In this document: positions 6,791 to 47,599 of the stretch, piece after piece
Layout: every line of letters starts with the position of its first letter
Position numbering within the stretch: position 1 is the stretch's first letter
The notes under the pieces: generated by a model
What the model saw: the letters and a program-made list of their open reading frames with translations, nothing else
Told to the model about the DNA's origin: nothing
Databases searched by the model: none
Made by a program: the position numbers and the translations under genes
NCBI GenBank assembly: GCA_026545225.1
Contig: CM048848.1
Location: 47,710,306 to 47,774,305, forward strand
Source of the DNA: Cornus controversa
Lineage: Eukaryota > Streptophyta > Magnoliopsida > Cornales > Cornaceae
Direction of reading: 5' to 3'
DNA: 64,000 nt

Positions 6791-8363
6791 TATATCATTT
6801 TTAACTCCTTGTACTTGTGGCCCTAGCATGCAATGTTGTAATCCCTGATGGAAAAGTCACTCCTAATAAGGGTCTCTTACAGGTCAATTCTTTAGCATGC
6901 CATGCAAAGTTGTCTCAGGACCATTTCATTGTCGACTTCAATAACTCTTGGTACAAGCAATGATGTCTCAATACCAATTCACTTTTGTGCAAGAAAGAAC
7001 CTTTGTGCACTCGAGTACCACCTTTTGTGCATCTACATACCACCTTTTGTGCACATCATTCTGACGAACGGTGATAAAAAAAAAAATTTGAACTAATTTT
7101 TGAGTGCCAGTTCTCAATGGGACAGAATGTTTGACAACTATTGACATCAAGTACTAAAAAATTAGTTCAATTTTTTATCATCAGTCATCAAAATAGTTAG
7201 TGTTATTTTTCGCTAGAAATTCAGCAAACATAAAGTGATCTATGGAACAAGAAGGACACCCTAAATTCACAACCAGAAGACATGAACCAAGACAGGTTTC
7301 ATTTTTAATTTCAATAGTAATTAGTGTGAGACGTTTACATGAATTAGGAGCTATTTCATAAAGCAAAAAATCAAGTGTTGAACATGAGTACTGAATTTAT
7401 TAAAAGTTATTTTTTTTCTTTTATCCTGACAAGATTAACTCTCACAATGTACTTGGAAAGACTCAAACCCTTTACCCTTCACTTTGAAAGGAGAGGAAAT
7501 ACCACCACTAGGCCATAGGTCTCGTGGTAATTTATTAAAAGTGATTGATTCTACAAAATATTGAAGACAGAAACTATTCCATTTTCAGTTCTACACCCAT
7601 AATCATGGAATAAATAATCTAAAGGCATAAAAACTGTTCATATATGTTCTCTGCATATGAAGTTTCCTGGTAGTTTCTGAGTTGAAGAAATACCACAGGC
7701 CTACAACCCTTTGTTCCAAAAAACTTCTTAGAAGTAACCAAATGTCGTATATTCAAAGATGGTTTGACACTAATAAATATTAGAGTTTATCAACATTGAA
7801 AAGTATGCAATTTTCCAAAACCAAAAAGAATTGGAAACAAAAGGAAAGTCAACAGTTAAAAATGTTGGCATTCATAACAAAAATACAAACGTATTATATA
7901 GCTAGTGTGCCCAAGAATCATTTTCCTCCTTGTTTATTATTTAATGAAAAAATGTGAAGACAGGTGTTTTTTAATATATCAATTTCTTCAAACTAACAAC
8001 ATGAAGCATCCAGGAAGGATCAACCATGGAAGCAGTCAAGTTTTTAGCTTGGACATAAGGACAAGTCTTTGAATTTTCTTATTATGGAGCTTACGTGACT
8101 AAATATGAATGAAATGTTGGTGCTGTTGAATATAAGGACCAAGTGTTTCTAATATGCACTACAAGACATATATATATGCACACTTGGAAGATATATGATC
8201 GAAGAACAAACAAGAGTTCTAAATTCTTTAAAATGATCAGATATTGGAACTCAATAAAGCCAAAATCTTCCCAAAACTAAAACCCAATAAATCAATTTAG
8301 GCTTGTTGAGCTAAATTTCCAATTCCTAACTTGACCTGTAAACCTAAAACTTGTAGATTTCCA
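6791..8363. other. Intergenic AT-rich DNA, no gene seen
   Basis: I find no coding exon, RNA gene or clear element here. Around 6980-7040 a phrase of the type CCACCTTTTGTGCA is repeated. Two TTAGTTCAAATTTTTT-like blocks face each other at about 7079-7097 and 7160-7178. These are probably decayed transposon remains. Confidence 0.3.
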
Positions 8364-8540
8364 TTAATTATATATTCGCACAATCACCATCCTAACTATT
8401 TCAAATAAAGAAAGAAGAGAACACCCACTACTCCAAATAAAGTTAATAAACAATAAAAATAAACAAACCGACTTCAATGAGGTAAAACATCGAACATTTG
8501 CTGTGTATATACAAAAATTACCTGCTGGAGTGCTGGGTAA

Positions 8541-11860: not shown

Positions 11861-13060
11861 CATCCTCACGGTCGAGCTCAACCTACGTCATCACCGAAAC
11901 TAAGCTCCATCATCATCTTCCGTCATGACCATAGTAAGCTTTACAGCCACCGTCCATGAACTCCATTGTCGGAAACAGTAACCAGCCACCACGGAGCACC
12001 ATTCCATCACCACCATCTTCCTCACAAACAAACCACTGTCAACACCACCATTACAACTTCAACCAATGAAGCTTCCAATCGAAAAAACCCATCACAGTCC
12101 ACTACCCATCATTCGTCTTCACGGCCAAGCTCAACCAACGTCATCACCGAAACCAAGCTCCACCATCATAAGGCTCCATTAACGAACAGACCCATGATCA
12201 TAGCAAGTTTCATAACCACCGTTCATGAAGACCCAAGCTCGACCAAACCATTAACTCTACTGCCAGAACAGTATCCAACCACCATGGAGCACTATTCCGT
12301 CACCGCCGCCGTCCTTACAACAAACCACCATCAACACCACCATGCAACTTCAACCAATGAAGCTTCGAACCGAAAAGACCCATCCCAATCCATTACCCAT
12401 CATCCCTCCTCACGACTGAGCTCAACCGACATCATCACGGAAACCAAGCTCCACCATCATCAAAGCTTCATCAACGAACAGTCCCATGACCATAATAAGC
12501 TTCACAACCACTCTCCATGAAGACCCAAGATCTGATGAATCATGAACTCCACTATCAGAACAGTAACTAAGCACCATGGAGCACCATTCTGTCACCACCA
12601 CCGTCCTCCCAGCAAACTGCCATCAACACCACCGTGACAACTTCAACCAACAAAGCTTTAAATTGAAACAACCTATCACAGTCCACTGCCCATCATTCGT
12701 CCTCACAGTCGAGCTTAACCGACGTTATCATCAAAAACTGTCACTAAAGTTCCATCAATTAACAGACCCACAACCATAACAACCTTCACAGGCACTATCC
12801 ATAAAGACCCAAGTTATGCCAAACCATGAACTGTAGTGCTGAAATAGTAACCAACCACCATGGAGCACCATTTTGTCACCACTATAGTCCTCCCAGCAAA
12901 CCATCATCAATACCACCATGACAACTTCAACCAATAAAGCTTCCAACTAAAAAGATCCATCACAGTCCACTGCCCATCATCCGTCCTCACGATCGAGCTC
13001 AATCGATGTCATCACCGGAACTAAGCTCCACCGTCATCAAAGCTCCATCAACGAACAGAC
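11861..13060. repeat. Satellite-like tandem array, period ~253-294 bp
   Basis: A motif of the form CGTCCTCACGGTCGAGCTCA recurs at 11861, 12114, 12404, 12698 and 12982, in register with other shared phrases: ACCATGGAGCACCATTC, CAACTTCAACCAATGAAGC and CACAGTCCACTGCCC. The array therefore holds four-plus units of about 290 bp that have drifted apart. Its composition (CAC, CATCAC, AACCAC) gives a long His/Thr/Ser-rich frame at 11966-12520. I regard that frame as a by-product of the repeat, not a gene. Confidence 0.8.
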
Positions 13061-13583: not shown

Positions 13584-14225
13584 AGAAAAAAAAGAATAGT
13601 ATTTTCATCTTTGCCAATCATCTCCACTCTCTCTATCATTTGTTACGAGTGATTTACCCCATCATTGAAAGACACCAAGTACATTGACATGAAATGTAAT
13701 ACAAAAGGAAGAGAATGGCTTTCTAGAAATCATATACCAATTGATCAATTTGTTCCAAGTATGTCCAAATTTAGTCATTTAATCTTAATTCCAATTTAAA
13801 AAATGAACAGTATTTTTCCAATCTATCCTGGTGTACAAAAAAAATTTGTTTTCAGCAACGTGGTTGAACATTAAAACAAAAATATATATGATTTGTTGTG
13901 TTATTAATATTAAATGTGAGATTTGTATCATTTACGAGGATAATATTGGACAAAGCCATTTTTGTTCTTGTACAAATAGAGTTGTTGCTTAGTTTTGCAT
14001 CATCATTATGAAGATACTATAATCATGCCCTTAAATGATCAAATGACCTTTACATTGATATAAAGCCTATATTATGTATGTACGTATGTAGCTCCTCAGT
14101 ACTGTTGCAATGCATGCTGAGTATATTTTCATATAATTTCACTACATCATATCATATTTTCTAATGTATATCTGTTATTTATTTGTAAAATGCAAGTTGG
14201 AGTGGTTAGTACTTGGTACTAAGAT
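13584..14225. other. Intergenic, no gene seen
   Basis: AT-rich sequence with no exon, RNA gene or element end that I can support. Confidence 0.3.
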
Positions 14226-14795
14226 TGTAATACCCCGCTCCAACACATGGTATGATATTGTTCGCTTTGGGCCTAAGCCCGCACGATTTTGCTCTTGAGT
14301 TTTACCCCAAAAGACCGTATACCATTTGAAGAGAACACACTACATATAAACACATCCCTTTCTCCACACCCAGGCGATGTGAGATTGAGCACCCTATACC
14401 CTGTCAGTGTGGTAGTTCAGCCCACTGTCTGTCTTCGCACCTGCCCACTCACACCCGTCCACAAGGGTTACTACAATCCACCCTCCTACGAGACTCGACG
14501 TCCTCGTCAGTACACTTTTGGCTGGGTTCAAGCTCTGATACTAACTGTAATACCCCGTTCCAACACATGGTATAATATTATCCGTTTTGGGCCTGAGCTC
14601 GTACGGTTTTACTCTTGGGTTTTACCCCAAAAGGCCTCATACCATTTGAAGAGAACACACTACATATAAGCACATCCCCTTCTCCACACCCAGGCGATGT
14701 GGGATTGAGCACCTTGTACCCTATCAGTGTGGTAGCTCAGTCCAGTGTCTGTCTTCGCACCCGTCCACTCATACTCGTCCATAAGGGTTACTACA
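14226..14795 (-). mobile_element. TRIM (terminal-repeat retrotransposon in miniature), complete structure
   Basis: Two 250-bp LTRs (14226-14475 and 14546-14795) enclose a 70-bp interior. Read on the minus strand, the LTR begins TGTAGTAACCC-type and ends GGTATTACA. It is followed by a tRNA-Met-type primer site (diverged) and a purine tract. An exact 5-bp duplication AAGAT flanks it (14221-14225 and 14796-14800). There is no coding capacity, as in all TRIMs. The two LTRs differ at roughly 30 sites by eye, mostly C/T and G/A, so it looks like the oldest of the family here. Confidence 0.9.
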
Positions 14796-14800
14796 AAGAT

Positions 14801-17289: not shown

Positions 17290-20200
17290 AATTGGAGGGC
17301 AATACTAGATCCTTCCAAGTAGTTTTTGTTTGATAAAGTTGCGGTTCATTAAAAAATCATCTCTCTCTATGTTCAATGTATTTAGTTTGCTTATAACATG
17401 TTATTTGTGTTCCATTTCTTCGGTTTCATTAGTTTTGGACTGTTTTATTTTTTGGATCCACTCAATCACAATTAGTAATACATTTTACGGGCCCACGAGG
17501 CCTGCGCCCCTTGGTTGACTGGACCCAAAAAAGTTAACTTTTGCTAAAAGCTCCGAAAACTTTCCCAAACCATAGATATGTTATCTAAACATGTATTTCA
17601 CATTTAAAATACATAAATAATCATTTAAAACACTAATATGATAATTAAATTAAAATGACAAAAAATCGTGTAAAAGTGGTCACAGTTCTTACAACCTACC
17701 CAACTTAAAAGGATTTCATCCCCGAAATCAGCCTGTAGGAAACAAGTCTGGATACTTAGAACGAACTTCCTGCTCTCGATCCCAAGTAGCCTCCTCAACA
17801 TTGTGGTGATACCACAAAACCTTGACCAACGGGATGGACTTACCTCTCAGAACTTACTCTCTAGCATTAAGAATCTGAATTGGTCTCTCTTTATAGGTGA
17901 CATCCTCATCAACCTCAACATCTACCCAACTCAGAACATGTGATGGATCAGTTTTATATTTCGTCAATATCGAAACATGGAATACATTGTGACCCTTTTT
18001 CCAGCTATGGTGGCAAAGCAATCTGTAGGCCACCTCACCAATATACTCAAGGATCTCAAATGGTCCAATGTATCTCGGTGACAACTTGCCACTTTGCCCA
18101 AAGCACATCAATCTTTTCCATGGTGAAACCTTAAGGAACACATGGTCTCCCACCTCAAAGGATAATGGTCTCCTCATTCGATCGATATACATCTTTTGTC
18201 TACTTTGAGCGGTCAACAATTGTTGCCTAATCAACTTAATCTTCTTTGTAATCTCATGCACAATATCTGGACCTAAGGCTGGGTCTCGCCCACTTCAGTC
18301 CAACAAACTAAAGACCTACAAAGTCTGCTGTACAACACCTCAAATATTACCATCTCAATATTGGCCTGATAACCATTGTTGTATGCAAACTCCATAAGTG
18401 GCAAATGGTCCTCCCAACTACCGCCAAAATTAATAATACAAGCACGAAGCATATCCTCCAATATTTAAATAGTATGCTCCGACTGTCCATCTGTCTGAGG
18501 ATGGAATACTGTGCTAAAATGCAACTCGGTGTCCAACACCGTCTGGAATCCCTACCAAAAGCTCGAAGTGAACCGTGGATCGAATACTAGAACCCCATGT
18601 AATCTCACAATATGCTCTATATATTGCTTACTGAATCTCCTCACATCATCATTCAGCCTTATAGGCAAAAAGTGAGCTATTTTTGTAGTAACCCTTGTGG
18701 ACGGGTGTGAGTGGGCGGGTGCATAGACAGACACTGGGCTGAGCTACCACACTGACAGGGTACAAGGTGCTCAATCCCACATCGCCTGGGTGTGGAAAAG
18801 GGGATGTGCTTATATGTAGTATGTTCTCTTCAAATGGTATGAGGCTTTTTGGGGTAAACCCAATAGCAAAACCGTGCGGGCTCAGACCCAAAACGGACAA
18901 TATCATACCATGTGTTGGAGCGGGGTATTACAATTTTGGTCAACCTGTCCACAATAACCCAAATTGTATCATTGCCTTTGCTCGATCTCGAAAGATTCGT
19001 AACAAAATCTATGGTGATATGTTCTCATTTTCACTCCGCCACTAGTAATGGTTGTAACAACCCAGTTGGCTTTTGGTGTTCCGCCTTTACCTGTCGACAA
19101 GTAAGGCATCTAGCTACAAACTGTGCTACCTCATTTTTTATACCCTGCCACCAATATTGGCGTCTCATGTTGTGGTATATTTTGATTCCACCAGGATGAA
19201 CTATAAAACGAGAATGATGAAATTCTTGTAGTACATCATCACGACACTCAGAAAAAACTACCATCAATTCTCTGAATCGTAGACCCCTATCAAAATACAG
19301 GGTCTAACCCATCACTGTCGTACCACCAACAATTTGTGAGTGAATAGACTCCAACCCACTATCCCTTTTTTGTGCCTCAATCACCTTGCTCAAAAGCATA
19401 GGTTGAGCTACCAAACTAAACAACATAGCTGGCTTACTATCGTCATTGAAATACAATCCCAACTTCGAGAAATCTTCCATCATTTTCCATTCCCGAATGG
19501 CTATGCTAGCTAAAGTCTCATGAGACTTTCTACTCAATGCATCTGCCACTACATTTGCTTTTCTCGGATGGTATTGCAAATAAAAATTGTAATCCTCCAT
19601 GTATTCAACCCATCGTTTCTATTTCATGTTCAAGTTTTTTTGGGAGAAAAGGTACTTGAGATTCTTGTGGTCCAAATACACTTCAAATTTCTCACCATAC
19701 AAGTAGTGTCTCCACCCTTTCAAGGCGAAGATCACCGCTGCTAACTCTAGGTCATGCGTAGGATAATTATGCTCATGAGTCTTTAATTGTCTAGACCCGT
19801 AATCAACTACTCCGTCACATTGCATCAACACACAACCTAGCCCGCTCCTCGAAACATTACAATAAATCACATACCCCAAGCCATGCTCAGGTATCACCAA
19901 AATAGGAGCTATAGTCAACCGTTTCTTCAATTCACAGAAAGCTAACTCACATGCTTCATTCCACACTAACTTCACACCCTTACGAGTGAGTCGTGTCATA
20001 TGAGCTGCAATACTAGAGAAGTCTTCCACAAACCTCCTATAGTAGCTTGCCAATCCCAGAAAATTCTAAATTTTGAAAACACTCTTCGGACTCTCCTAAC
20101 TCATCATGGCCTCAATCTTAGATGGATCAACTGAAACTCCACCTCTATAAATAACATATCCAAAAATTCACCTCTTGGAACCAAAACTCGCACTTCTCAT

Positions 20201-21899: not shown

Positions 21900-22427
21900 T
21901 TAAGATGAAGCAACAAACCCAGTGGAGTTGAACAGTATAAATGACCTGCTTACAATGGAATCGAGTCCTTTCACTTGGAGGGTGCCATTCGCAGCATAAT
22001 TATAGGCGTAGCGCTCTTTGAGAGTTCCACCAAGGAGACTAAATGCTGCTTGGTAGGTTATTTTTGCGACCAGTGAGGCCATCAGTAACAACACACCATA
22101 TAGACACTCCCTTTTGGGTTTGATGATGGCGTTGATTGAATTATGTGATGGCTTGTGGCAGCCCCCTCCTCTACTATCATAAACAACATCATTGTCATTG
22201 TCATTGGCGAGATCTCTGGCTTTCAAAGCTCCAGCTTCTCCAAGCATTTTTCCAATTTCTGGATCTATATCCCCATCATTTGATACAACATGTTGACTGT
22301 CCGGTGCGGTGAAACCACCAGATTTCATGCCATTCATATACACTAAATAGTGAATGTTTGGATTATACTTAGAGGTGAGTAATCCTTTCATTTTTTGCAA
22401 AACAATCAAAGTTTTAACAGAAAACAT
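21900..22427 (-). pseudogene. PGG-domain protein fragment (ankyrin/PGG family)
   Basis: An open minus-strand frame of 175 residues ends with a membrane-type segment (VLLLMASLVAKITYQAAFSL, LGGTLKERYAYN, SFILFNSTGFVASS). This matches the PGG domain, whose usual form is a hydrophobic LxVxATLIATVTFQA followed by PGG and a second hydrophobic FNTxGFxAS. The PPGG signature is degraded here (LLGG). The frame stops at FVASS, where family members normally continue through further membrane helices. The N-terminal part (NGMKSGGFTAPDSQHVVSND...) has no ankyrin repeats. I infer a fragment of an ankyrin/PGG plasma-membrane protein, cut at both ends, next to the UGT85 fragment. Confidence 0.55.
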
Positions 22428-23967
22428 GTCTCAAAATTAACCACATTCCTTTTCTCATAATTGATCAGTCAAAAATAAATAAATAAATACTACCATTCGA
22501 AGGGAACTCTTTCTACAATCTAGAAGGCAAGTCATGTCTCCTCTCTCTGCCTCTCTCTCTCTCTCTCTCTCTGTGCAAGCATGAAGTTCAGTTGAAGAGT
22601 CTAGACAAAGAATAGCACGCATGTTCTCTGTTCTCTCTGTTTCTTTTACACAACAATATCAAATAAACTAATGTCCACTGACCTCTCAACCTGTTTCTGG
22701 GGCAGTACACGATTTTGTTGGTTGGATCAATTACAACTCTCAAACTCGTGCCTGCAATTTATATATCGGAGATATATTTCTCTTTTTTACTTTCTAAAGC
22801 AAATGAATCAAATTTCAACCATTTTCACACATATGATCAATATGAAGAAAGTGATCATCTAAAGAATTAGTTTTGGAAAGCGTCTGTGGTTGAACTCTAG
22901 CTGGAGTATATTGATTCTGGATCAATATGATCAATATGGTGTAATTTTGGATCTAAGGGATAGAGTGTGACATTAATAAATATATTTAAACTAAATTTGT
23001 TCCCAATCTAAAAAACCCTCAAAATTTTAAAGTACACCTTAAAGAAAAATAAATAGAAAAGGATATCCAATCACATTACGCTTGAATAAATAAATTACAA
23101 TCCATATCAACTTCTCAACTCCAATTCATTCAATCATCTCTTCAGGCTTCATTCTATAATTGGTTGATTTTAGCTTTGTTGTTACTTGGTTAATGTTATA
23201 TAAGTGCTGTTAGTGTAATGCTTTTTTTGCCTTCTCTATTTTTGTTAAACTTTTAAGGCTTAGGGAAAAATGGTGGTTGATCATTGTTGTCATTTTTATG
23301 GAATTGATTCAGGCTACCAGTATAGTCGAGGTGACATTTCAAAATAGCTGCCTTAGGGACACGATATAGAATAGATAGGGACTGCCAGCCTCTTCTCGTT
23401 TGCGATCGTAAAAGGAGAAGGCAAACAGGAACAATAGATATCAGACCCCCATTGTAATTACTGATATCCTGAACCTATATGCCCAAAACTCTTTTCTTGA
23501 AAGCATAAATTTAGCTAAGGAAAATACGCCACCACACTTGTACAATAACATCTACCTGTTTATCATTTGTAATAGGCTTTGTCTTACGTTTTCTTAACTA
23601 CATGGTTTTTAATACTCTCATCTTTCTATAACTTACTTTATACCAACTAACTAATTAGGGTGAAAAAAAACAAGAATTTGTGGGTCAACTCTATCATTGA
23701 AATACATATAGTGTTTTTTTTTTTTTTTTTGTTTAGTACATATGGTATTGTAGTAAGACAATTATTACTTAAGTCGACATTCCTAAGTTTCAATAGTACT
23801 TTTAGTATGTATATATAAATGTATGTATATATATATATATATATATATATTAACTTAAATATATTTTATAAATTTGAAGAATATCTAGAATATAAGTGTA
23901 ATTTATATTCAACATGCATCAAATATTTTGTATCCATAATTAATTTGACTTTCTTTGAACCAGTTAC
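22428..23967. other. Upstream region of the CACTA transposase gene, left end of element not found
   Basis: Contains a CT microsatellite (about 22541-22572), a TA microsatellite (about 23823-23851) and AT-rich DNA. The left CACTA terminus, expected as CACTACAAGAA with GTGACGG subterminal repeats as on the right side, is not present between the PGG fragment and 23968. A GC-richer stretch at about 23310-23470 (TAGGGACTGCCAGCC, GTTTGCGATCG) is unidentified. Confidence 0.45.
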
Positions 23968-26900
23968 ATGGACAAGTCTTGGATTCATCATCACACAAGG
24001 GGTAGTCGAGAGTATTATAAAGGCATAAGAGACTTCATTAAGTTGGCTAAAAGACATACTGACACGCTAGGTAGGACCAAATGTCCATGTCGTCATTGCA
24101 AAAATAGAAAGTATATGCCAATTAAAGAGGTTGAGAATCATCTATATAAGGATGGGATGTACAAAGAATATACTAATTGGGTATGGCATGGGGAGGCTCG
24201 TCAAACCAATGGTAATGTTAACATTGAACCTAATGTTAGTGGGTATAATGAAGATAGAAATGAAGACAATGTATTTGAACTATTGGATAACGTACGGAGG
24301 GGAACATTCACTAATGCAGAGGAGCAAGAAGATTTGCCTCAAGTTGATGTGGGAGGAGAAAGTTTTGATAGATTGTTAAATGATGCACAATGTGAATTGT
24401 GGCCAGGATGCCAAAAACACTCTAAGTTGTCAGCAATATTAAAGTTGTTCCATTTGAAGGTTATGAACAAATGGTCCAACAAATCTTTTGACATGTTGCT
24501 CGAGGCATTAAAGGATATTCTTCCTGACAATAACACGTTGCCAAAGTCCCATTTTGAGACTAAAAGCTTGTTGCGTGATTTGGGTCTCGGATATGTTCCC
24601 ATCCATGCATGTAAAAATGATTGTGCTCTATTCTGGAAGGAAAATGAAGGTAAAGAATATTGTCCACAGTGTGGTGAGTCGAGGTATATGCCTCATGAAG
24701 GTAAGGGTAAGAAAATTCCTCAAAAAGTTCTTCGGTACTTCCCATTGAAATCAAGGCTTAAGCGGTTGTTTATGTCAACAGATACAGCCGTAGACATGCG
24801 GTGGCATAAGGAGAAACGTGTCAAAGAGACAAACGTGTTGAGACATTCGGCGGATTCAAAAACTTGGGAGGAATTTGACAATAAACATAGTTGGTTTGCA
24901 AGTGATTCTCGTAATGTTCGTCTTGGGTTAGCATGTGATGGATTCAATCCATTTGGTAACATGAGCAACGCTTATAGTATGTGGCCTGTGATTATTGTGC
25001 CCTACAATTTGCCTCCTTGGAAATGTATGAAGGAACCATATATGTTTATGTCATTACTTATTCCTGGTCCTAAATCACCTGGTAATGACATTGATGTTTA
25101 TCTACGACCACTAATTGACGAGTTAAAAGAATTGTGGACGGATGGTGTGATGACATATGATGCCTACAGTAAATCTAACTTTAAAATGCACGCGGGATTG
25201 ATTTGGACTATAATTGACTTTCCTGCCTATGCGATGATATCCGGATGGATGACAAAAGGTTATCTGGCATGTCCAAACTGTAACAAAGACACTTGTTCTT
25301 GTTATTTGAGTCATGGACATAAAATATGTTATTTGGGAAGTCGTCGATTTTTGCCATCCGATCACAATTACAGGAAGCGTTACAAGCTATTTGATGGAAC
25401 GAAAGAAGATAGAGTGCCACCGAAGTAGTTGACAGGCGATGATATTTTGGAACAACTTAATCTTATTCCTGAGGTTAGTTTTGGAAAGGGACCAAATAAT
25501 AAGAAGCGGACTCGTGAGGTGATAGAACTTAACTGGACAAAGAAGAGTATATTCTTTGAACTACCTTATTGGCGAACACTTTTGTTGCGGCACAACTTAG
25601 ATGTTATGCACATAGAGAAAAACATATGTGATAATGTGTTGGGGACATTAATGAACATCGAAGGAAAGACAAAGGACACGTTCAAAAGTCGGTTGGATTT
25701 AGAAGCAATGGGAATTAGAAAAGAACTTCATCTTAGGCATAATGGTGAGAGATTTGAAATGCCATATGCGCGCTACACATTGTTAAAGGATGAAAAAAGG
25801 CAAATGTGTGAATGGTTAAAGTCGGTGAAGTTCCCAGATGGCTATGCGTCGAACATAAGTCGGTGTGTGAATGTTAATGAATGTAAGATATCTGGATTAA
25901 AAAGTCATGATTCACATGTTCTTTTACAACGTCTCCTCTCTCTAGCTTTACGGGGATTATTAGCCGAGGATGTTTGTACTGCAATAACAGAGCTTGGTTT
26001 ATTCTTCAAGGATATGTGTTGTCGGACCCTTAAACTAGATATCTTAGAGGCACTGGAAAAAGATACTGTTATATTATGCAAGTTAGAGATGATATTTCCT
26101 CCATCATTTTTTGACATAATGGTGCACTTAGCTGTGCATTTGCTGTGCGAGGCAATCATCGCAGGACCTGCACATTATCGATGGATGTACCCTATTGAAA
26201 GGTGTTGTATATTTATAATACAAAAAATTATTTTCTTTTATGATAAGTTTATTTTGGGGGCATTACACTACACTTAATTATTTTTAAATATTTTGATACG
26301 TATGTAGGTTTTTACATACTCTCAAGTTGTATGTGCGTAATAAAGCACGTCCTGAAGGGTCTATTGCCGAAGCTTACGTTGACAATGAATGCCTCACATT
26401 TTGCTCAATGTTTCTTCGAGGGATTGAGACACGATTCAATCGAGAAGAAAGAAATTATGAGGGAGGCTATCAGACCAATTGGTCCACTTTTTCACAACTA
26501 AGGCAAGTGGTTCGTCCTTTAGGGTCTGGAAGTTTAGAAAGACTGGACATTGCAAGCATACAGAAGGCTCGATTTACCGTGTTAAATAATTGTCCAAAAA
26601 TTGCGCCATATGCAGAGTAAGTTATATGCCTTATATGTCATATTTTATATCTTTTTTTTAATACTATATTTGTAATTATGAAATGCATCTTAACATCACA
26701 TATTTGTTTAGTCAACACAAGGTTGAACTCGAGGAAAAAAATACACATAATGTACAATCAACACATGCAAAAGAATTTCCTATGTGGTTGGGAACACGAG
26801 TAAGTCAATGTACTTGACAGTCATGTCATTTGATTTAAATGTTGTATCCTTGTTCATTTATTTAATGTTCTCTATATTTTTCTATAGATAAAGGAATTGC

Positions 26901-27649
26901 GTCATCAACACGACTCAACAATTAGCGATGACCTATATTCATTAGCGTGTGGACCTGATTGTCGGATAAAACGATATTCTGGTTGCATTGTAAATGGAGT
27001 TAGGTTCCATACAAAGGAAAGGGAGAGAAATCGAAGAACACAGAATAGCGGTGTGTTTGTCAAAGGAGAAAGCTTAGATTACTATGGTGTCTTGACAGAT
27101 GTCATTGAGTTACAATATCCTATGAATAGAAGGGTTATCCTGTTCAAATGTGATTGGTTCAACACAAGGACTGGTATTCGTAAGGATACTTATTTCAGGA
27201 GCATAAACGTAGCAAATAAATGGTACAAAGATGAGCCTTTTGTGTTAGCTAATCTAGCAAAACAAGTCTTCTTTGTCAAAGACACCAAATTACGAGGAAC
27301 ATGGGAGGTCATTCAAGATATAACACATAGAAGCTTTTATGATGTACATGAAGTGGAGGATGATAGTAGACTTGAGGATGAAATTTCTACTACAGCATAT
27401 CAAGAGGATGAACAATACATTGTGGATAGGGTTGTTGAGGCGGCTGACTTCGACATGGATGTACTCCCTTTGAGCAGGGATGGCTTGGAGGTTGAAAGTC
27501 TTGATGCTGAAATAATTATACAAAGTAATCAAGAATCACGTGATCAAATTGACTTTCCTCAAAATGATGATGAAATCTACAATGAAGATAGTTCAAACGA
27601 GGAACAAGAATTGCTTAGTGAAGATGATACTGATTTGGATGATACGTGA
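23968..27649 (+). pseudogene. CACTA transposase (TNP2-like), four exons, one in-frame stop
   Basis: Exons 23968-26201, 26308-26616, 26712-26799 and 26888-27649 splice at GT-AG sites and keep phase through 1131 codons including the natural stop. The start MDKSWIHHHTRG is the usual opening of the transposase-associated domain (residues ~1-75, with CPCRHC). A CxxC...C zinc-like cluster lies near 215-240. The TNP2 catalytic region follows (about 290-465: HSADSKTWEEFD, LACDGFNPFGNMS, FPAYAMISGWMTKG, ACPNC). Next come a DUF4218 block (about 700-790, AVHLLCEAIIAGPAHYRWMY) and DUF4216 (about 935-1000, FKCDWFNT), with an acidic tail. A single TAG at 25426-25428 interrupts the frame between PPK and LTGDD, where the family has a residue followed by LTG; a CAG-to-TAG change would explain it. 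Otherwise the frame is open. It would cut element ends in the nucleus. Confidence 0.88.
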
Positions 27650-27992
27650 AATTAATTTGTTGAACATATTGAAATCTACATTTACTTTGACATGTTGAAG
27701 TTGTTTAATTTTGTCTTCAATACTTGAACTTTGAGTTTTAAAATATGAGTTGTTTTGATCCTTTTGAGTTATTATTACTCTCTTTTGCATTCTCATGGCA
27801 TACGTTATACATTAGAAAGTCTATTATAAAGATAAAAGACTAAACATTAATAATTTTGTTGTTATACTTTCTAATTGCTAAATTCAGTTAGGAGTTTTTA
27901 ATACTTTGCCCCACTACTTCATTGTTAGTCTCTAACCTCTTTGTTTCATGACTTGTTATAAATATTTGATTAGCTTATTGTTGTGATCTACT

Positions 27993-30900
27993 ATGGCGTC
28001 TAATGCACCTCGTCGCTCCTTGAGGTCCAATCATGAACTCACCCAAAATACTCTTGTACTGTCCCAGCCAGAACCACTAGTGGAAGGTTATCATTTAATG
28101 TCTTTACATTTACTAAACTTGGTCCTTAATTTTAATAAAATAGTGTTCAATGTTACTTTCATGACTTTTACTTTTCAGGTTTGTCAAGTGAACTAAAGAG
28201 ACGTGGCAAATCTGTAAACGAAAAAAAATACAAAGTGAAAAAGGAGAATGGGGGGATTGTCCCGATTCAGTTTTCGGAAGATTATTTGAAACCGGTGGGG
28301 GAACATTCAGAAATATGGGATACTGAACTTGGAATCTTAGCTCGTGAGAATATTCCACTATGCTTTGGGTCTTGGCCGAAGGTCCCAGAATATCATAGAC
28401 AGTGTTTGTACCAGTTTATAAAGGTCATAAAATTCATTCCTTTGTTTTAACTTATATTTAATTTCATGGGTCTTTGTTTGATCCAATCTTAGAGAGTTTT
28501 AGCTTAAGTCATTACCTTATATTCATGAGTCTAATCTTGCTCCTTATACCTTTTCAAAATGATACTTTTTTTCTGTCTTATTTATGTGAAAAATTACAGA
28601 CGGACTTTGGAATTGATTGCAATACCGATTCAAAACTAAAGAAGCTGGTAAATACAACATTGGCCAATGATTATAAGACTTACAGGTACACTATGAAAAA
28701 ACATTTTAAAAAGTTTGAGACAGAAGAAAGTGGACGCAGCCACCCATACCCTTATGTGACTAACGAAGACTGGCAGATGTTGTGTGATAGGTGGACTTCA
28801 ACAAAATTTCAGGTTAAGTTCTTTACTCAATGTTTAATTATTAGATATACTTATATGTCTTTTGCTCATTCTTTTATTCTCTCTCATTTGTTGTTTATTT
28901 TTTCATCTACATTGTAGGAAATTAGTGCCAAAAACACAACAAATAGAGGAAAGTTGAATGTCGTACATTGTGCTGGGTCAAAGTCCTTCGCTAAAATTCA
29001 TTATGAGTTGGTAATATATAACACTATAGTTTGGTTTTTATTTTTATTTTGTTCTCATTCTAAAATAATACCCTGTCATATATATAAAAAAAATGCAGAA
29101 AACCTCTTCAATTAATGATGAAGATAGTGATGAAGACCAGGAGCATCATCTCCCAGGACCTGCAATTCAAATGTACCGTAAAACACATTATAAGGAAGGG
29201 ACTGGATGGATTCATGAGGATGCTCGAAAAGCATATGTAAGTACTTGATATTTACTTGTGTTATAGATGTTGAGGTTGGTTTATCAAATAAGGCTTGTGT
29301 ATATTATTTAATTTTTGTGATAATACGAGGTTTAGTCAAGTATTTTTTTTCTCGGTTTCACTTGGTCACTGTTTTTTTTTTCTTTCTTGTTATCGATCTG
29401 CTTCTACATCTCTTTCATTTGTGGTGCCTAGGACCATCATTTTTGAGTTTAATCAGAGCTTCCAAAATCCCTGCATTTTATATATAGAGAATGTAGCCTT
29501 GAGTGAAACCTGGTCCATTAATAAATTATGAATATATATTACCAACTGCAGGTCATATCTTTCTTTAGGAGTGAAAATAAACTCATGACTACTACATGGC
29601 CTTTCATAGTGTAGTGTAGCTTATTCCTAGTACGTTCAGGCAGTATGCTTAATTTTTGTAGCTTGCTTGTTGTATGTAAGAGTCCGTGTCTGTAGGTATG
29701 GAGCTGAAAGTCTTCATCAAGAAGTAGTTGCTTGAATAAGGTAGTTTCAACTCTAGCTGACAGTGAAAGTAGGCATGAATCTAATAGTCAGTTCCAATTG
29801 TACGTTGTTGAAAGGAAAGCCTGTGCATGAGGTTTTTTTATTATTTTATTTTTTCCTGGGTGTATATATATATATAGCTCAATTAGTTATGAAAAATGAT
29901 GGGAAATGAGATGCATCTTGTCAAATACTAATTCTATTTGCTAAGGAACTCTGATGATGATTCATATAGCAGCCAATAGCCATTTAGTTGAATCTGGATG
30001 AACCTTAAGCTTGATTTGAGCCAAATTATACTTGAGCACCAATTAAGTTATATTATTTTTAATTGCTCTATAACATGGCCTTCTTATAGCCCTTCTGTGG
30101 TAGCTTATATTTTAGTAGTAGTAAACAACATTTGATGCACATTCTGGCCTAATTAGACAGTTATATACAATTATTCTCTTCCAAATTTAGATAGTAGGAA
30201 TTATTTTCTTTCTTTCTTTCTTTTAACTTTTTTTCTTTGTTGCATACTATAAGGACAGTCCATAAATTTAGTTCATGTAATTTAATTCTTGGTTATTGTA
30301 ATTTGATCACCTCAAACAACAGCTGAACCTGCAACAATTTACTTAACATTAGATTACTGAAACGAAACAGATTAGTGCTCAAGTACAATCTAAAATATAG
30401 TTTTTTATGACTATGTTCCAAAGGTGGTGCCATCCTTTATAAATATGCTCTTTAATTGATGGCTTTGGTTACATTAATTTGTATTTTATTATTATTTCTC
30501 ATTCTTATGTTTTTTATGATTGTGCATTCAATTGTTCAAAAATGCAGGAGGACATGGTGGCGGCCCAATCATCAGAAGGATCCATTAGTTGTGATATTGG
30601 TAGTTCAGTCCCTATAGACGAGCAAATATTGGAGAACCGTCTTGGAATAGCTAAGGGTCAATATTTCCGCGGGTTTGGCTATGGGAAGGCTCCATCTTGC
30701 TTGAGTCGTAAGAGGAAAACAACTGGAGAGTTAGAGGCTGAAAGGAGGGCTGAACAAGCCGAGCAAGAACGTGATGCAAGTAAGGAAGAATTGTCACAAT
30801 TGAAGGAATCCATGACCGAAATGAAAGCAAATTTTAATACATTGTCCTCAGAGTTCATGGAATACAAAAGGATGTCATCCCAATTCATATCCACACCGTT

Positions 30901-31039
30901 CAGCGCATATGGACCCTTATTTGGCAATCCACAGCAACAACAGCCGCCAACTTATGGACCCTTTGGCAGCCTTCTAAATCTACAACCAGCATTTGGCCCT
31001 TATCCACCATTTCAGTCACAACCATCAACTGATCAATGA
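27993..31039 (+). CDS. CACTA accessory protein (plant En/Spm transposase_24 family), six exons, open
   Basis: Exons 27993-28086, 28179-28423, 28600-28812, 28918-29010, 29099-29236 and 30548-31039 join at GT-AG sites. They give 425 codons including the stop with no break. The start is MASNAPRRSLRSNHELTQ. Residues ~65-260 carry the transposase_24 pattern (YRYTMKKHFKKF, VTNEDWQMLCDRWTSTKFQ, NRGKLNVVHCAGSKSFAKIH, GPAIQMYRKTHYKEGTGW, DARKAY). Exon 6 starts with the usual acidic stretch, then RGFGYGKAPS, a predicted coiled coil (about 321-375, GELEAERRAEQAEQERDASK...), and a Pro/Gln-rich tail. The last intron is long (about 1.3 kb). The product is likely a DNA-binding partner of the upstream transposase, analogous in position to TNPA. 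Its intact frame suggests relatively recent activity or selection. Confidence 0.85.
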
Positions 31040-31428
31040 TTGCTTATGTATTAATTCAAACTTCTGTTTAGATAGCTATTTTATTTAGAATGCTCTTATT
31101 ATTATTATCTACTAATTTAGAACAGAATGATGCAACTGCTAGATTTGAATTTGTTGTTTAAATTGTTTTGAACAGAATGATTCTAGTGTTAGATTTGAAC
31201 TTAGTTATTAAATAATGATTATTTAAATTTAGCTTTTTGATTACTGTTGTTGATATCAATGTATTTTCTTATATAGTAGTTTTAATGGTTGCAGCAAAGA
31301 ATCACCATTCAAAGCAATAATAATAATAATAAAAGGGCCCTAAATCCGGGTTTCATGCACCATTCAAATTAGCAGTAAATAAAAAAACAGGGAATCACCG
31401 ATCAAAGCAGTAAAAAAAAAAAAAGAAT

Positions 31429-31752
31429 TAGTGACGGAAGTGTGCGTCACAAATATGAATTTGTGACGGATATAAATTCTGTCATAAAAACTACTTGTGA
31501 CGGACTATTTTTTTGTCACAAAACTATTTGTGACGGAATTCCTTCTGTCACAAATAATTTCCCTACGGAAATGAATTCCGTCACAAATAGACCGTCACTA
31601 AAGACCTCCGTCACAAATAGTCCGTCACTAAAGGCTTTTGTGACGCCAGTTTCTGCAACGGTTTTGCTTACCGTCACAAAAGGAATTAGTGACGAAAATA
31701 CTACTTTTAATGACAATTTTTTTCGTCACTAACACTCCTGATTCTTGTAGTG
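31429..31752. repeat. CACTA right subterminal repeat array and TIR
   Basis: More than a dozen copies of GTGACGG or CCGTCAC in both orientations, often as TTTGTGACGGA, lie within about 300 bp. The segment ends at the TIR ATTCTTGTAGTG (31741-31752). In CACTA elements such arrays are the binding sites for the TNPA-type protein. The three bases after the end, ATT (31753-31755), would be the target duplication, but the left partner cannot be checked. Confidence 0.85.
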
Positions 31753-31905
31753 ATTAAAGGTTATCCCTTATAAAAATTCTTCGAGTCCGTCGCTAAATTT
31801 GATTATTCAATTGTTTGGTTGATCCTATAAATAAGATTGTTTTCAAAACTATTTTTTTTGGATAAGGAGAATTTTTTTATAGTGCCGTGGACAATACGCT
31901 AGTAT
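31753..31905. repeat. Segmental repeat, second copy at ~41566-41690
   Basis: The flank immediately right of the CACTA end (ATTAAAGG, CCCTTATAAAAATTC, TTGATTATT, AATTGTTTGGTTGAT, GATAAGGAGAATTTTTTTAT, CAATACGCTAG) is repeated at about 41566-41690 without a CACTA element beside it. That copy begins GTGTATTAAAGG, so it may represent the same sequence before insertion. Confidence 0.7.
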
Positions 31906-32140
31906 ATTATATTTATATATATAAATATGTTTCCAAGCCCACACTAACCCATATATTATATTTATATATAAATATGCTTGCCGACCCACACTATCTCATA
32001 TATTATACATATTCTTTTTTCTTCTCATTTCTCAGTCATGCTTGTCGGCCGTGCTAACTCATATATTATATTTATATTTATATATATAAATATGCTTGTC
32101 AGTCCATACTAACCCATATATTATATTTATAAATATAAAT
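31895..32140. repeat. AT-rich tandem repeat upstream of the BAHD gene, unit ~60-70 bp
   Basis: A unit of the form CATATATTATATTTATATAT, AAATATGCTTG, then a CCACACTAAC-type segment occurs about four times with variation. It sits 600-840 bp upstream of the BAHD start codon. It may be a simple slippage array. A regulatory role is not shown. Confidence 0.65.
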
Positions 32141-32669: not shown

Positions 32670-32737
32670 TATGAAACATCGTATATATATAACATACCCG
32701 AAAGCAGTGCTCTTTCTAGATACGAGTATATAGCAAT
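32670..32737 (+). promoter_or_regulatory. Proximal promoter block shared by both BAHD copies
   Basis: TATATATAACAT at about 32684-32695, CTCTTTCTAGATA at 32710-32722 and ATATAGCAATATG ending at the start codon also occur upstream of the inverted paralog at the left edge. The TATATA-type block about 50 bp before the ATG could be a TATA box. This is retention of duplicated sequence and a plausible core promoter. No specific factor site is claimed. Confidence 0.35.
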
Positions 32738-34183
32738 ATGCAACACATTGCTCCAGCAGCCAATTCCGTGAAAGTTATGGAAAACTACCGAGTTTCGCCG
32801 CCACCAGGTGCGGTGGCCGATCAGTTTCTCCCCCTCACCTTTTTCGACTTTCCTTGGCTACAGCTACCTCCAATCCAAAAGCTTCTCTTCTGTGAATTCC
32901 ATCACTCTAAGACCCATTTCACAGACACCCTCATTCCTCATCTCAAACACACACTATCTCTCACTCTCAAACACACTTTCCCTCTCGCTGGTAACTTGAT
33001 AATTCACTCGTCCAATTCTAGCAAGCCCAAAATTCGTTACACCGAGGGTGACTCAGTTCCACTAACCTTTGCTGAGTCTAGTAACGATTTTAATTACCTT
33101 GCATCAAATCAAGCACGAAATGTTGATCAATTTTATCACCTCATCCCTCAGTTGCCACAGAGAGATACCAATGTGACCGATTCGGAGACACTAATAGTAG
33201 TCCCACTTGCAGCACTTCAGGTCACACTTTTTCCTGACACTGGGATTTGTTTTGGCTTTGCCTACCACCATGTTCTGGCCGACGGTAAGGCCTTCCATGG
33301 TTTCTTGAAGTCATGGGCTTCCATTGCTAAATTTGGCAGTGATGTCGAATTGTTAGCTGGTGGGCACCTCCCATTTTGTGACAGGACTATCATAAAAGAC
33401 CCAACTGGGCTAGATACTATATTTTGGAGCCAAGTTTGTGAAGAGAGTAAAAAAGAAGAGCTCTGCCAAACTCCGTCCCGGCTTGGGATGGCCAACAAAG
33501 TTCGAGCCACATTTTTCCTAGCCCGAATTGATGTTCAACGACTCAAGGAATCGGTTATCACCCATCGTCGGCGACAGAATTCGACCTTACCATTACATGT
33601 ATCCACATTCGTGGTAACATGTGCCTACATGTGGATTTGCATTTTAAAATCACGCGCAAGCACTAGGGTGGACGAGGATGACGACGACGACGATGATGAA
33701 TTGGATCACTTTGTTTTCGCAGCAGATTGTCGAGAACGTTTGGATCCACCCATACCTGCAACTTACTTTGGTAATTGCTTAGCACCTTGTTTGATAACGG
33801 TAAGACATAGCAAACTAATGGATGAAAAAGAAGGCTTTTTTGTAGCAGTGGATTCGTTTGGAGAGGCTATTGACAGAAGGCTTCACAGTGGCGAGCCAGA
33901 GGCAGTGTTGAAAGGCTCGGAAAATTGGCTGTCCGATTTTAAAACTGTGAAAGTTGACCGATTGATGTCGGTGGCAGGATCACCCAAAATCAGCCTCTAC
34001 GAACCGGATTTTGGGTGGGGAAGGCCACGAAAGAGTGAAATTGTTTCAATAGATTTTACGGGGGCCTTTTCCATCAGTGAGTGCAGGGATTCTCAAGGAG
34101 ATGTGGAGATTGGTGTGTCCTTCCCAAAGATCACAATGGATGCTTTTGCTTCCATTTTCGTCCACGGCCTTGAGCTTCTGTAA
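32738..34183 (+). CDS. BAHD acyltransferase, anthocyanin/flavonoid malonyltransferase type
   Basis: A single exon of 481 codons, which is typical length for clade I BAHD enzymes. It has the catalytic HxxxD (H178-V-L-A-D182), the clade I motif YFGNC (about 343-347) and the structural DFGWG (about 424-428, DFGWGRP). The N-terminal pattern PLTFFDFPWLQLPP and FPLAGNL also fit anthocyanin or phenolic-glucoside malonyltransferases. Such cytosolic enzymes move malonyl or hydroxycinnamoyl from CoA to sugars on flavonoids or other phenolics, aiding vacuolar storage. The acyl donor and acceptor cannot be read from sequence. Odd points are a run of Asp and Glu (about 312-322, VDEDDDDDDDEL) in the crossover region and a duplicated C-terminal coding segment just past the stop. 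The start is supported by the same MQHI start in the left-edge paralog. Confidence 0.93.
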   Translation: MQHIAPAANSVKVMENYRVSPPPGAVADQFLPLTFFDFPWLQLPPIQKLLFCEFHHSKTHFTDTLIPHLKHTLSLTLKHTFPLAGNLIIHSSNSSKPKIRYTEGDSVPLTFAESSNDFNYLASNQARNVDQFYHLIPQLPQRDTNVTDSETLIVVPLAALQVTLFPDTGICFGFAYHHVLADGKAFHGFLKSWASIAKFGSDVELLAGGHLPFCDRTIIKDPTGLDTIFWSQVCEESKKEELCQTPSRLGMANKVRATFFLARIDVQRLKESVITHRRRQNSTLPLHVSTFVVTCAYMWICILKSRASTRVDEDDDDDDDELDHFVFAADCRERLDPPIPATYFGNCLAPCLITVRHSKLMDEKEGFFVAVDSFGEAIDRRLHSGEPEAVLKGSENWLSDFKTVKVDRLMSVAGSPKISLYEPDFGWGRPRKSEIVSIDFTGAFSISECRDSQGDVEIGVSFPKITMDAFASIFVHGLELL

Positions 34184-39295: not shown

Positions 39296-41141
39296 GTTAA
39301 CGGATTGGAGCATGGGCCTGACCATTGAGCAGCAAAACAGCAATATGGGTCATGACGAGAAGGAGTGGCTCATCAGAGGTGGTGAGGTACCGGTCCGGGC
39401 AGCTCTTGAAGCTCATGATTTGATCTTCTCTTCCTCGATTTTCACCGTTCAACTAGCTTTCTGTGGAAAGTTATCAAAGCTTTGCCTAATGATTTGTTCA
39501 TCGTCGGTGATTAGGCATTTGTGAAGATGGCTTCGAAGCCGAACAACTTTGGCTTCATTGAAGAATTTCATGCTTGAACGACTTTGTTTGTTAGGTAGTT
39601 CATGGCTACAAGTATATATGATTTTATACATATACAATGCAAATAGAGATACATGTTTCGATGCATACATACACAATTGCATATATACACATATAAATGG
39701 AAAGATGATCATCGATTAGCTTTGAATAGAAAAGGAAACGTATATTTCTTATAGAGACTCACTAATGAAGGATCTGATCGAACGGATTAGATTTCGTGCC
39801 AATTTTAGTTTAGAGAAATTGCCAGAAGGCTCGCTCGGATCATGTTAGACTTTGACAACGCTTTTGTGTATTCCCTACTAAAGCGGCAACATTCCGATGA
39901 CTGGCCTTTGAATGTAAATTAAGAGGAATGACCTTATTCTTCTCGAAGGGGAAAACACCAACATAAAAATTGTGAAAGGAATGAGAGACTCGTGATGAGT
40001 CGGAAACGATTGAATTCATACTCGTTTCCCACAGACGGCATCAAAGTGTAGATGCAAAAATTATACTCACTAATTATCAGAAGTAGATAGAAGGAATAAA
40101 CACTCAAAAATAGATGATACTGAGGTTGACACATAGGATTTACATGGTTCGGCACAATTTGGCTTACATTAATGGATGAGAGGAGACTTTTGTATATATT
40201 TCATGAGATATTACAAAAACTCAATATATCTCTTTTTCTTTCTAGCCTAGCCATGGCTGAATACAAGAAACAATATTTCTTTCCCCTCTTTCCCGTGTCC
40301 TTTTTATTGGAATTTCTATACATATTTATACGAGTAGTGCTACCATTGTAGTGATGATTTGGTGTTGATTATTCAATGATTCGCCCTTGATTTGAGGCTG
40401 ATTTGTACCAATCCTTTCTCTTAAGGAAAGAATCTAATCATTCCTATTTTGAACCTGATTTGATGATATCTCACTCTGACTGGTTGACTGTAGTTGCCAC
40501 ATATAATGTTGATGTTGATGAAATTATTTGGCACATGTCATTCCCAATAATGACCTAAATCACGACATGCGTACCATGTTAACTTTTTTTATGCTCAGGT
40601 GCATGTCTTCTTCCTATTTGGTTGGAATTTTTCCCTACACACTTTTCATTTCCTGTCTCAAGACATCTGTTTCATATGATAGATTAAAAAAATTGATTAT
40701 AAATCACCTTTCTTCCTCTTCACTTCTACTTGTGAAATGTCTAATTTTGTATTAATTCATGCTTATAAAAATCAATCACCTGAAACCAGTTTCTTGCACC
40801 TCCACCTTTCAGTCCCTTCACCTTTCCTCTCCTCTCTTCACACATTCAAAATAGTCGTAGTAGCCAATGCTTTTTGTATGTTTATATATATATTAATGCC
40901 CACTATGGAGATGGGGATCGAAACCTACCCGACCTCCCATTTGGGACTTGTGCGAATGACTTGGTGCTGATATTTTTTTCATTGTTAATGTACTCAAATT
41001 TTATTTCTGTTATTATTGATTGGCCAAAACAGGTTGTTGAATTTACAATGTATAAAATGGAAATGAAATATTTGAGAAAAATTAAGGATCAATTTATTTT
41101 CAGGTTGATCATAATAAGAGGTGGAGTTGTAAGAGATGAAG
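39296..41141. other. Intergenic, unidentified low-copy sequence
   Basis: Begins with a less AT-rich stretch (39300-39540, a frame starting MGLTIEQQNSNMGHDEKEWL) that I cannot assign to any family. The rest is AT-rich with no exon structure. It could be a decayed gene fragment flanking the solo LTR. Confidence 0.25.
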
Positions 41142-41440
41142 TTTTTGATTGTGTAAAAAAAGAGAGAGAAGAAGAGGCCTAAGTGGTTTTTGAAAGAAGA
41201 GTGGAGGGAGAAAATTAAAATAGCTGTCAAAAAATGAAAAAAAAAAAAGTAGAAATGGAAAGAGAACTAAAACTTGGCAGGTTACTATCATTTAAATTAA
41301 AGAGCACTACAACTTTTTGATTGTGTAAAAAAAAGAAAGAAGAGAAGGCTGTTAAAATATGAAGGAAAAGAAATAGAAATGGTAAGAGAAAACTAAAACT
41401 TGACAGATTACTATTATTTGAAGGACCATGCTACTTAGTA
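41142..41440. repeat. Tandem duplication, unit ~172 bp
   Basis: The phrase TTTTTGATTGTGTAAAAAAA starts at 41142 and again at 41314. The following AGAAG, GAAATGG, AGAGAACTAAAACTTG and AGGTTACTAT-type segments keep the same order. It is an AG-rich, non-coding duplication with a few indels. Confidence 0.75.
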
Positions 41441-41565
41441 AATGAAGCAAATATTTTTATTAAAGTAAATATTAAAAATTCTTGATACATAAAAGTAAAT
41501 GTTATCAATGAATAATGATAAATTTACTCATTAAAATTATTACGATGGTTTGAAATTTTTTTTTG

Positions 41566-41690
41566 TGTATTAAAGGCTGCCCCTTATAAAAATTCATGGG
41601 TCGCTGGATTTGATTATTTAATTGTTTGGTTGATTCTATAAGGATAAGGAGAATTTTTTTATAGGTACGAGCAATACGCTAGCATATATA
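41566..41690. repeat. Segmental repeat without CACTA, partner of 31753-31905
   Basis: Shares CCTTATAAAAATTC, TTGATTATT, AATTGTTTGGTTGAT and GATAAGGAGAATTTTTTTAT with the flank just right of the CACTA end. The phrase GTGTATTAAAGG here spans the point where CACTA starts at the other site. Confidence 0.7.
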
Positions 41691-41699
41691 TATATATAT

Positions 41700-41911
41700 G
41701 AGAAATGCTAAACGTCACAATTTTATTTCACAAATTTTAATTCGAATCTATGTGGCAGGTGATAATACTATAGGGACTCCATGTATGGGGAGAATCCCAT
41801 CAATAATAACTTACCATTTAATTTTATCTCTTAAAATAATGGACTATATCACCTGTCACATAGATTCGAGTTAAAATTCATGATATTTATTCGAGACGTG
41901 TAGCATTGCTC
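41700..41911. mobile_element. MITE with ~60-bp TIRs, inserted in a TA microsatellite
   Basis: The left arm starts GAGAAATGCTAAACGTC and the right arm, inward, GAGCAATGCTACACGTC. Both continue through GAATCTATGTGGCAGGTGA-type sequence. The element sits in (TA)n on both sides, so the target duplication (TA?) cannot be measured. A related copy lies at 48880-49061. Confidence 0.75.
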
Positions 41912-41948
41912 TATATATATATATATATATATATAGAAAGTTTCTCTC

Positions 41949-45911: not shown

Positions 45912-46531
45912 TAAAAAAATTGTATTAAAATTCCAGTCGAATTTCAGAACACATCAAATAGCGAGCCTTTTCTTATCCATGTCGTAACCCACCTCATTTT
46001 TGCACCATTGACGCTCCACTAAACATTTTTGCTCAATCTTGGATCCCAAACTCGTTCATTATGGTATCGTAAGAACCAGAATCTTATATTCAATTCAATC
46101 CATGTGAGTTGTGGAGTGTGAAAAGTTTCATATCATATAAAAGACCTAGAGGGAGTCAATAGATCTTCCTGCTCAATAGATTGATTTTGGAATTATTTTA
46201 ATTATACTCAAATTAAAAGTGTTTGGCTCACAAAATTTTGTTATGTAGAAGTGCGGGTGAATCTGGAGTTTAAAAAATTCCAAGAAAGTAAGCCTAACAA
46301 TATTTCATAATATTATTGGAAGGTTAAAATGATCCGGCGATTATGAGAGATTCTAGAATGGCCACTCTAGGACTTCGAGATAAAGTGACTGAAATTGAAA
46401 AGAATTGAAAGTATAGTTATAGAAAGTAAGTACTAGAAATGTAAATTACATTAATGAAAGGAATTGAAATACATTGCAGAAATATAATATACCAAAAATG
46501 TGAAGTAATTAAAAGACGAGTGCAGTGAAAA
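45912..46531. other. Intergenic, no gene seen
   Basis: AT-rich DNA with no supported exon or element. It ends at the TRIM target site GAAAA. Confidence 0.3.
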
Positions 46532-47104
46532 TGTAATACCCCGCTCCAACACATGGTATGATATTGTCCGCTTTGGGCCTGAACCCGCACGGTTTTGCTC
46601 TTGGGTTTTACCCCAAAAGGCCTCATACCATTTGAAGAGAACATACTACATATAAGCACATCCCCTTTTCCACACCCAGGCGATGTGAGATTGAGCACCC
46701 TGTACCCTGTCAGTGTGGTAGCTCAGCTCAGTGTCTGTCTATGCACCCGCCCACTCACACCCGTCCACAAGGGTTACTACAATCCACCCCCCTACGAGGC
46801 CCGACGTCCTCGTTGGCACACTTCTTCCGGCTGGGTTCAGGCTCTGATACCAACTGTAATACCCCGCTCCAACACATGGTATGATATTGTCCGCTTTGGG
46901 CCTGAGCCCGCACGGTTTTGCTCTTGGGTTTTACCCCAAAAGGCCTCATACCATTTGAAGAGAACATACTACATATAAGCACATCCCCTTTTCCACACCC
47001 AGGCGATGTGGGATTGAGCACCCTGTACCCTGTCAGTGTGGTAGCTCAGTCTAGTGTCTATCTATGCACCCGCCCACTCACACCCGTCCACAAGGGTTAC
47101 TACA
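46532..47104 (-). mobile_element. TRIM, complete, youngest-looking copy
   Basis: LTRs 46532-46781 and 46855-47104 (250 bp each) enclose a 73-bp interior. On the minus strand this holds the primer site TTGGTATCAGAGCC directly after the LTR and a purine tract (GGGGGGTGGAT) before the other LTR. An exact 5-bp duplication GAAAA flanks it (46527-46531 and 47105-47109). The LTRs differ at only about six positions by eye, so this insertion looks much younger than the copy at 14226. It has no coding capacity. Confidence 0.95.
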
Positions 47105-47599
47105 GAAAATGTAAAGTAATTAAAAGATTCATTGCACATAATTAAAAATAATTGAAATGTTGTTGAGTGGTTGTGTTAACAGGATTACATATGACCCCAA
47201 GTTCATCAATTTATAGAGTTCCTTCGGCTTATAGTTGATGGTTAAACCTTCTACAGATTCCTCCACATCTTTTCAATAAAATGTCGCCAATTTCGGAAAT
47301 AAATCTTCAAAGTTAATCCGACTCCTCTATATCTATCCGTATTTCTGTTCATGTCCATTAACTGCTGCAATTCTTCCTTATTTTTAGTACTAATCCAACA
47401 AATTGATCCATTCAGCCAAGTGTTTCAATCCTAAGAGGCCAAGTGTTCTAAACCAACTTTCATTTTAAAAAAGTCAAATTTTTCTAAGTGTAGCTCTCTG
47501 ATTTTCCTGCCTTTAAAAGTATGACACCTCTTGCCAAATGAGCCCTTTCAAACAATAAAACTACATCACAACTCTTTATCTAGTGGTCTATTCCACGAG
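47105..47599. other. Intergenic, no gene seen
   Basis: AT-rich sequence without a supported feature. Confidence 0.3.

Follow-up and report, generated by a model that had tools for sequence, protein, structure and literature searches.

A CACTA element copy with two gene bodies and a right end in Cornus controversa

Two genes of a CACTA element

We examined a 64,000-nucleotide stretch of the Cornus controversa genome (assembly GCA_026545225.1, contig CM048848.1, positions 47,710,306 to 47,774,305 of the forward strand; hereafter the window, with positions counted from its first letter), in which an initial annotation had recognized a CACTA transposable element with two genes at 23968-31752. Both the element type and the two-gene layout were borne out by Pfam domains, gene models, a 3' terminus and subterminal repeats (Table 1). 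Concerning the limits, 31752 is indeed the end of the 3' terminus, whereas 23968 is the ATG of the transposase gene and corresponds to no element end.

Table 1. Features of the CACTA element and its right flank, in window positions
Feature	Position	Strand	Remarks
Transposase (TnpD/tnp2-type) exon 1	23968..26201	+	Contains in-frame TAG; Transposase_21 and Transpos_assoc matches
Lone in-frame TAG	25426..25428	+	Within Transposase_21 match (residues 289-498)
Transposase exon 2	26308..26616	+	DUF4218 (residues 684-794) straddles exon 1/2 junction
Transposase exon 3	26712..26799	+	Based on splicing
Transposase exon 4	26888..27649	+	DUF4216; terminal TGA
TnpA-like gene exon 1	27993..28086	+	No Pfam match
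TnpA-like gene exon 2	28179..28423	+	No Pfam match
TnpA-like gene exon 3	28600..28812	+	Transposase_24 match begins (residue 169)
TnpA-like gene exon 4	28918..29010	+	Transposase_24 at 24.2 bits alone, under cut-off of 28.7
TnpA-like gene exon 5	29099..29236	+	Inside Transposase_24 match of joined protein; none alone
TnpA-like gene exon 6	30548..31039	+	Transposase_24 match ends (residue 305); none alone; terminal TGA
3' subterminal region	31429..31732	.	15 GTGAC/GTCAC repeats (6 and 9)
3' terminus, element end	31744..31752	-	Exact CACTACAAG
3' flank	31753..31920	+	69% similar to 41569-41699, beginning exactly at element end

The first gene had been described as a transposase kept in phase through four exons except for one stop codon. 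When the raw sequence was spliced by a script, we obtained the same structure, with 1130 codon positions (1131 codons counting the terminal stop) and a single internal stop, the TAG at codon 487. The longest stop-free frame in the region 23968-27649 spans 486 codons. In 200 random sequences of matching base-to-base frequencies, frames reached at most 211 codons (mean 110), and the open frame is not due to chance. The protein matched the Pfam family Transposase_21 (E value 8.7e-102, 339 bits), identifying it as a tnp2-type transposase, and further matches were found to DUF4218 (6e-48), DUF4216 (1.2e-22) and Transpos_assoc (1.3e-19). All eight introns of the two gene models have GT..AG borders.

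The three introns of the transposase gene lie within codon 745, within codon 848 and after codon 877, giving spacings of 103 and 29 residues. Buchmann et al. 2014 (PMC4158355) proposed for the ancestral CACTA transposase gene four or more exons and three conserved boundary regions. Between their closest boundaries, these regions are separated by 98 and 30 residues, the first region lying on or near the catalytic Glu. The Cornus gene model, with its four exons, fits this scheme. Two residues were weighed as the catalytic Glu, residue 550 in MHIEKN and residue 744 in YPIER. The latter is favoured because of the position given to the first intron region in that work, and we regard residue 744 as probably the catalytic one, an assignment that is our own and was placed by no tool. 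The TAG at codon 487 precedes both residues, and the intact transposase with an acidic triad that marks an autonomous active element is, owing to this stop, not encoded here.

A different account of the stop would be that it lies in an unrecognized intron or represents a sequencing error, and that the transposase is whole. Among the 32 GT..AG pairs around the stop with a length that is a multiple of 3 and at least 60 bases, 28 would keep exon 1 open, and the sequence by itself thus permits such an intron. However, the Transposase_21 match spans the stop, so that such an intron would cut a conserved domain or its edge. As weak evidence, none of the tested donors starts with GTAAG, the form found in three of the eight model introns. 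Even with a whole transposase the absence of a 5' end, described below, would persist, and we consider this explanation very unlikely.

For the second gene, the proposed six exons were likewise confirmed by splicing, yielding 424 residues with no internal stop. The joined protein matched Transposase_24 (E value 5.1e-12, 46.6 bits against a cut-off of 28.7, residues 169-305), which indicates a TnpA-type protein. We also scanned exons 3, 4, 5 and 6 singly and exons 1 and 2 joined. Exon 4 was the only piece that matched Transposase_24 on its own. Because joining raises the score from 24.2 to 46.6 bits, the junctions from exon 3 to exon 6 have some outside support. Exons 1 and 2 (residues 1-113) gave no Pfam match and were placed by the open frame and the GT..AG borders only. 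The other Pfam matches of single exons were weak, every one of them below its cut-off, and a scan against NCBIfam returned one weak match, to MukB (13.2 bits against a cut-off of 699). Intron 5 (29237-30547) measures 1.3 kb and the other four 88-176 bases; it was considered as a possible site of a nested insertion, and no repeat partner for it was found within the window.

The right end and the search for a left end

The right end of the element is clear when the terminus, the repeats and the flank are taken together. GTGAC or GTCAC occurs 15 times in the final 340 bp, and spans of this size in 20 random 64-kb sequences contained at most four. The direct and inverted subterminal repeats at close spacing that characterize CACTA elements are thus present on the 3' side; they were not found on the 5' side. 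Since the similarity of the flank to 41569-41699 begins exactly at 31753, it provides an independent hint that the true boundary lies between 31752 and 31753. The end of the flank-like copy runs into an imperfect inverted repeat (41684-41928) and overlaps its first bases. An ATT triplet directly follows the 3' end, and there is no left junction with which it could be compared as a 3-bp target-site duplication. Taking into account the transposase and the 3' end, we assign the element to the CACTA (En/Spm) superfamily as an incomplete member.

On the left, a 9-base scan of the window for CACTACAAG on the + strand, allowing one mismatch, found none between 8166 and the 3' end, and when up to three mismatches were allowed for the 16-base terminus, its only match was itself. 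When the last 333 bases were reverse-complemented and compared with the window by BLAST, the upstream matches were all chance-sized, the best having 14 bases and an E value of 0.065. A 5' subterminal block was not found either, the interval 22430-23967 containing two GTGAC/GTCAC motifs. We then have the 55 CACTA or CACTG sites of the first 24 kb, in each of which the preceding triplet was checked, with details recorded for the six sites passing the filter. A single site is preceded by ATT, namely CACTGATTGG at 15958, and this one is unlike the terminus (7 of 13 bases). The exact CACTACAAG at 8157 agrees with the terminus in 10 of 13 and 13 of 29 bases, has no repeats within 400 bp and was rejected. 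The site at 12550 (9 of 13 bases, four repeats, preceded by CTC) was dismissed owing to its position inside a tandem array of 284-base units, and that at 20976 is also a poor candidate (9 of 13 bases, two repeats). The best ungapped 29-base matches to the terminus upstream reached 17 of 29 bases, and none of them starts with CACTA.

We also approached the left flank through 41000-41575, the sequence that precedes the flank-like copy, but nothing upstream of the element made a convincing partner for it. One match, 23694-23738, is a run of T (E value 0.29); another, 8344-8421 (E value 1e-4, 69%), is A-rich and was judged to be of low complexity. No convincing inverted 5' CACTA terminus was found across the 24 kb upstream. 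Part of this region is occupied by other coding sequence, with a PGG domain at 21900-22430 and from a retroelement at 17.8-20.9 kb whose domain names point to the Ty3 type.

Decay, mobility and activity of the copy

We consider it highly likely that the element is an autonomous-type plant CACTA copy of the En/Spm superfamily that is without a 5' terminus, immobile in cis and no source of transposase. The copy would have lost its 5' terminus, as the search of the window suggests, and would have retained the gene bodies of both proteins together with the 3' end. The stop before the likely third catalytic acid would prevent production of a full transposase, and the missing end would leave the copy immobile in cis. 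With no 5' end and a stop ahead of the likely catalytic Glu, the copy very probably can neither move nor make full transposase.

Several observations weigh against this interpretation. The nine bases of the terminus alone are within chance, with 16 matches in the window (at most one mismatch) against 11.8 expected, a number reached in 14 of 100 shuffles, and with the second exact copy at 8157; the call of the 3' end rests on the adjoining repeats and the flank. No left break point could be placed, and the assessment is built on a single copy within these 64 kb. In addition, the 5' side of such elements can be long and differ from the 3' side. In soybean Tgmt*, 6,122 bp precede the first exon (PMC2613891), and in raspberry RiCACTA1 only one of the two sides is described as carrying subterminal repeats (PMC11790086). 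Missing 5' repeats alone therefore prove nothing, and the absent 5' terminus is the stronger point.

The raspberry precedent would also suit a complete, recently active element with a 5' end that is still there in diverged form and a stop that is very recent or allelic. The single stop and the lack of any frame break in 4668 coding bases, which under neutrality fit a substitution level of 0.45%, agree with this possibility as well. On the other hand, the 24 kb upstream contain no convincing terminus, the nearest candidates (8157, 12550 and 20976) being poor, and the PGG-domain and Ty3-type retroelement coding sequences occupy 17.8-22.4 kb. We regard a complete element as unlikely.

Concerning activity, the initial annotation had taken near-intact coding in both genes as a sign that the element was recently active. 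If the copy decays neutrally, a single stop among 4668 coding bases, with no break of the frame, corresponds to approximately 0.45% substitutions per site; at a transition/transversion ratio of 2, the upper bound is approximately 2.1%. Ratios from 1 to 4 gave 0.39-0.53%, with upper bounds of 1.9-2.5%, in a model that covers substitutions only and leaves indels outside. The near-intact frames thus point to little neutral decay, and the coding looks young, but activity of the copy itself does not follow, taking into account the missing 5' end and the early stop. Low neutral decay is a weaker statement than activity. The CACTA family was probably active shortly before this copy lost function, and the copy is very likely dead. 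It serves as a reminder that near-intact frames do not show activity where an end is missing.

In En/Spm, the DDE transposase works on the terminal inverted repeats, the TnpA-type protein supports excision, and the promoter is found at the 5' end of the element. TnpA recognizes the subterminal repeats, transposition needs both proteins, and the tnpA and tnpD products arise from alternatively spliced transcripts (PMC2613891). As these products are alternatively spliced in En/Spm and the 5' end is missing here, the Cornus copy may have lost its promoter. If transcribed, it would at most supply TnpA-type protein in trans, and it is possible that this protein would bind the subterminal repeats of relatives. 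That the intact TnpA-type gene of this one-ended copy is still expressed and acts in trans on the subterminal repeats of relatives, or is turning into a DNA-binding gene of the host that lies upstream of the acyltransferase gene described below, seems to us highly improbable. A related proposal is that the host has kept the second gene as a DNA-binding protein, the copy being a domesticated, immobilized CACTA element. The second gene is whole across six exons, as this would predict, while the transposase is stopped and no left end was detected. Nevertheless, with one stop in approximately 4.7 kb, an intact frame of 1.3 kb needs no selection, and the 5'-end promoter known from En/Spm would be lost here; we judge domestication to be extremely unlikely.

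Known CACTA elements and neighbouring features

The one-ended CACTA copy of Cornus resembles systems that have been described. Conserved-domain type 3 of CACTA elements (PMC8978399) shares with it Transpos_assoc (TAD in that work), Transposase_21, DUF4218 and DUF4216 in the first gene and Transposase_24 in the second; unlike that type, the Cornus copy has no 5' end that could be found and its transposase is stopped. In lettuce, LsC2 is inactive after losing one terminal repeat, that of the 5' side (PMC8195511), and thus resembles the Cornus copy in having a 3' terminal repeat and no 5' one. The lettuce elements differ in that LsC1 is non-autonomous and 3.9 kb long, LsC2 is 1.1 kb long, and neither is reported to have the two genes. 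Soybean Tgmt* likewise combines a tnp2 transposase with a second product presumed to bind subterminal sequence, and its subterminal repeats are asymmetric. However, the second domain of transposase type in Tgmt* belongs to TNP1 (pfam03017) and not to Transposase_24, and the element, at 20.5 kb, has both ends (PMC2613891). The domain layout (PMC8978399), the exon layout (PMC4158355) and the one-ended copy (PMC8195511) have all been published before, and the Cornus element is one more ordinary, damaged representative of an established type. It is of little importance outside annotation and is a well-preserved example of the layout with a four-exon transposase and Transposase_24.

Relatives were searched for with 209 residues of the transposase (window positions 24799-25425) as the query, the second protein lying outside it. 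Viral contigs gave no pattern match, plasmids gave no match, and bacterial and archaeal genome contigs gave three pattern matches, none of which was confirmed. As none of these viral, prokaryotic and plasmid collections is a plant collection, the misses are uninformative on plants. In a literature search on the repeat motif and CACTA transposons, none of the 10 titles listed out of 207 concerned a CACTA element.

Several other features were noted in the window. Inverted, paralogous coding sequences of the Pfam Transferase family, which we take to be HXXXD-type acyltransferases, lie at 32720-34183 (+) and 1-1150 (-), and their DNA is 82% identical. The 32720 sequence, which begins approximately 1 kb past the 3' end of the CACTA element, has an open frame of 487 codons. 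A RAM2-like glycerol-3-phosphate acyltransferase coding sequence with HAD_RAM2_N and Acyltransferase domains occupies 57548-60117 (-), in two separate open frames. A dispersed repeat family is found at four places in both orientations (14214-14800, 18680-18940, 46528-47108 and 54008-54583), its pieces being roughly 250-570 bases long and 86-97% alike, some of them dimers. Finally, tandem arrays are present at 11954-13060 (284-base unit, 3.8 copies) and 60760-61034 (42-base unit, 6.6 copies).

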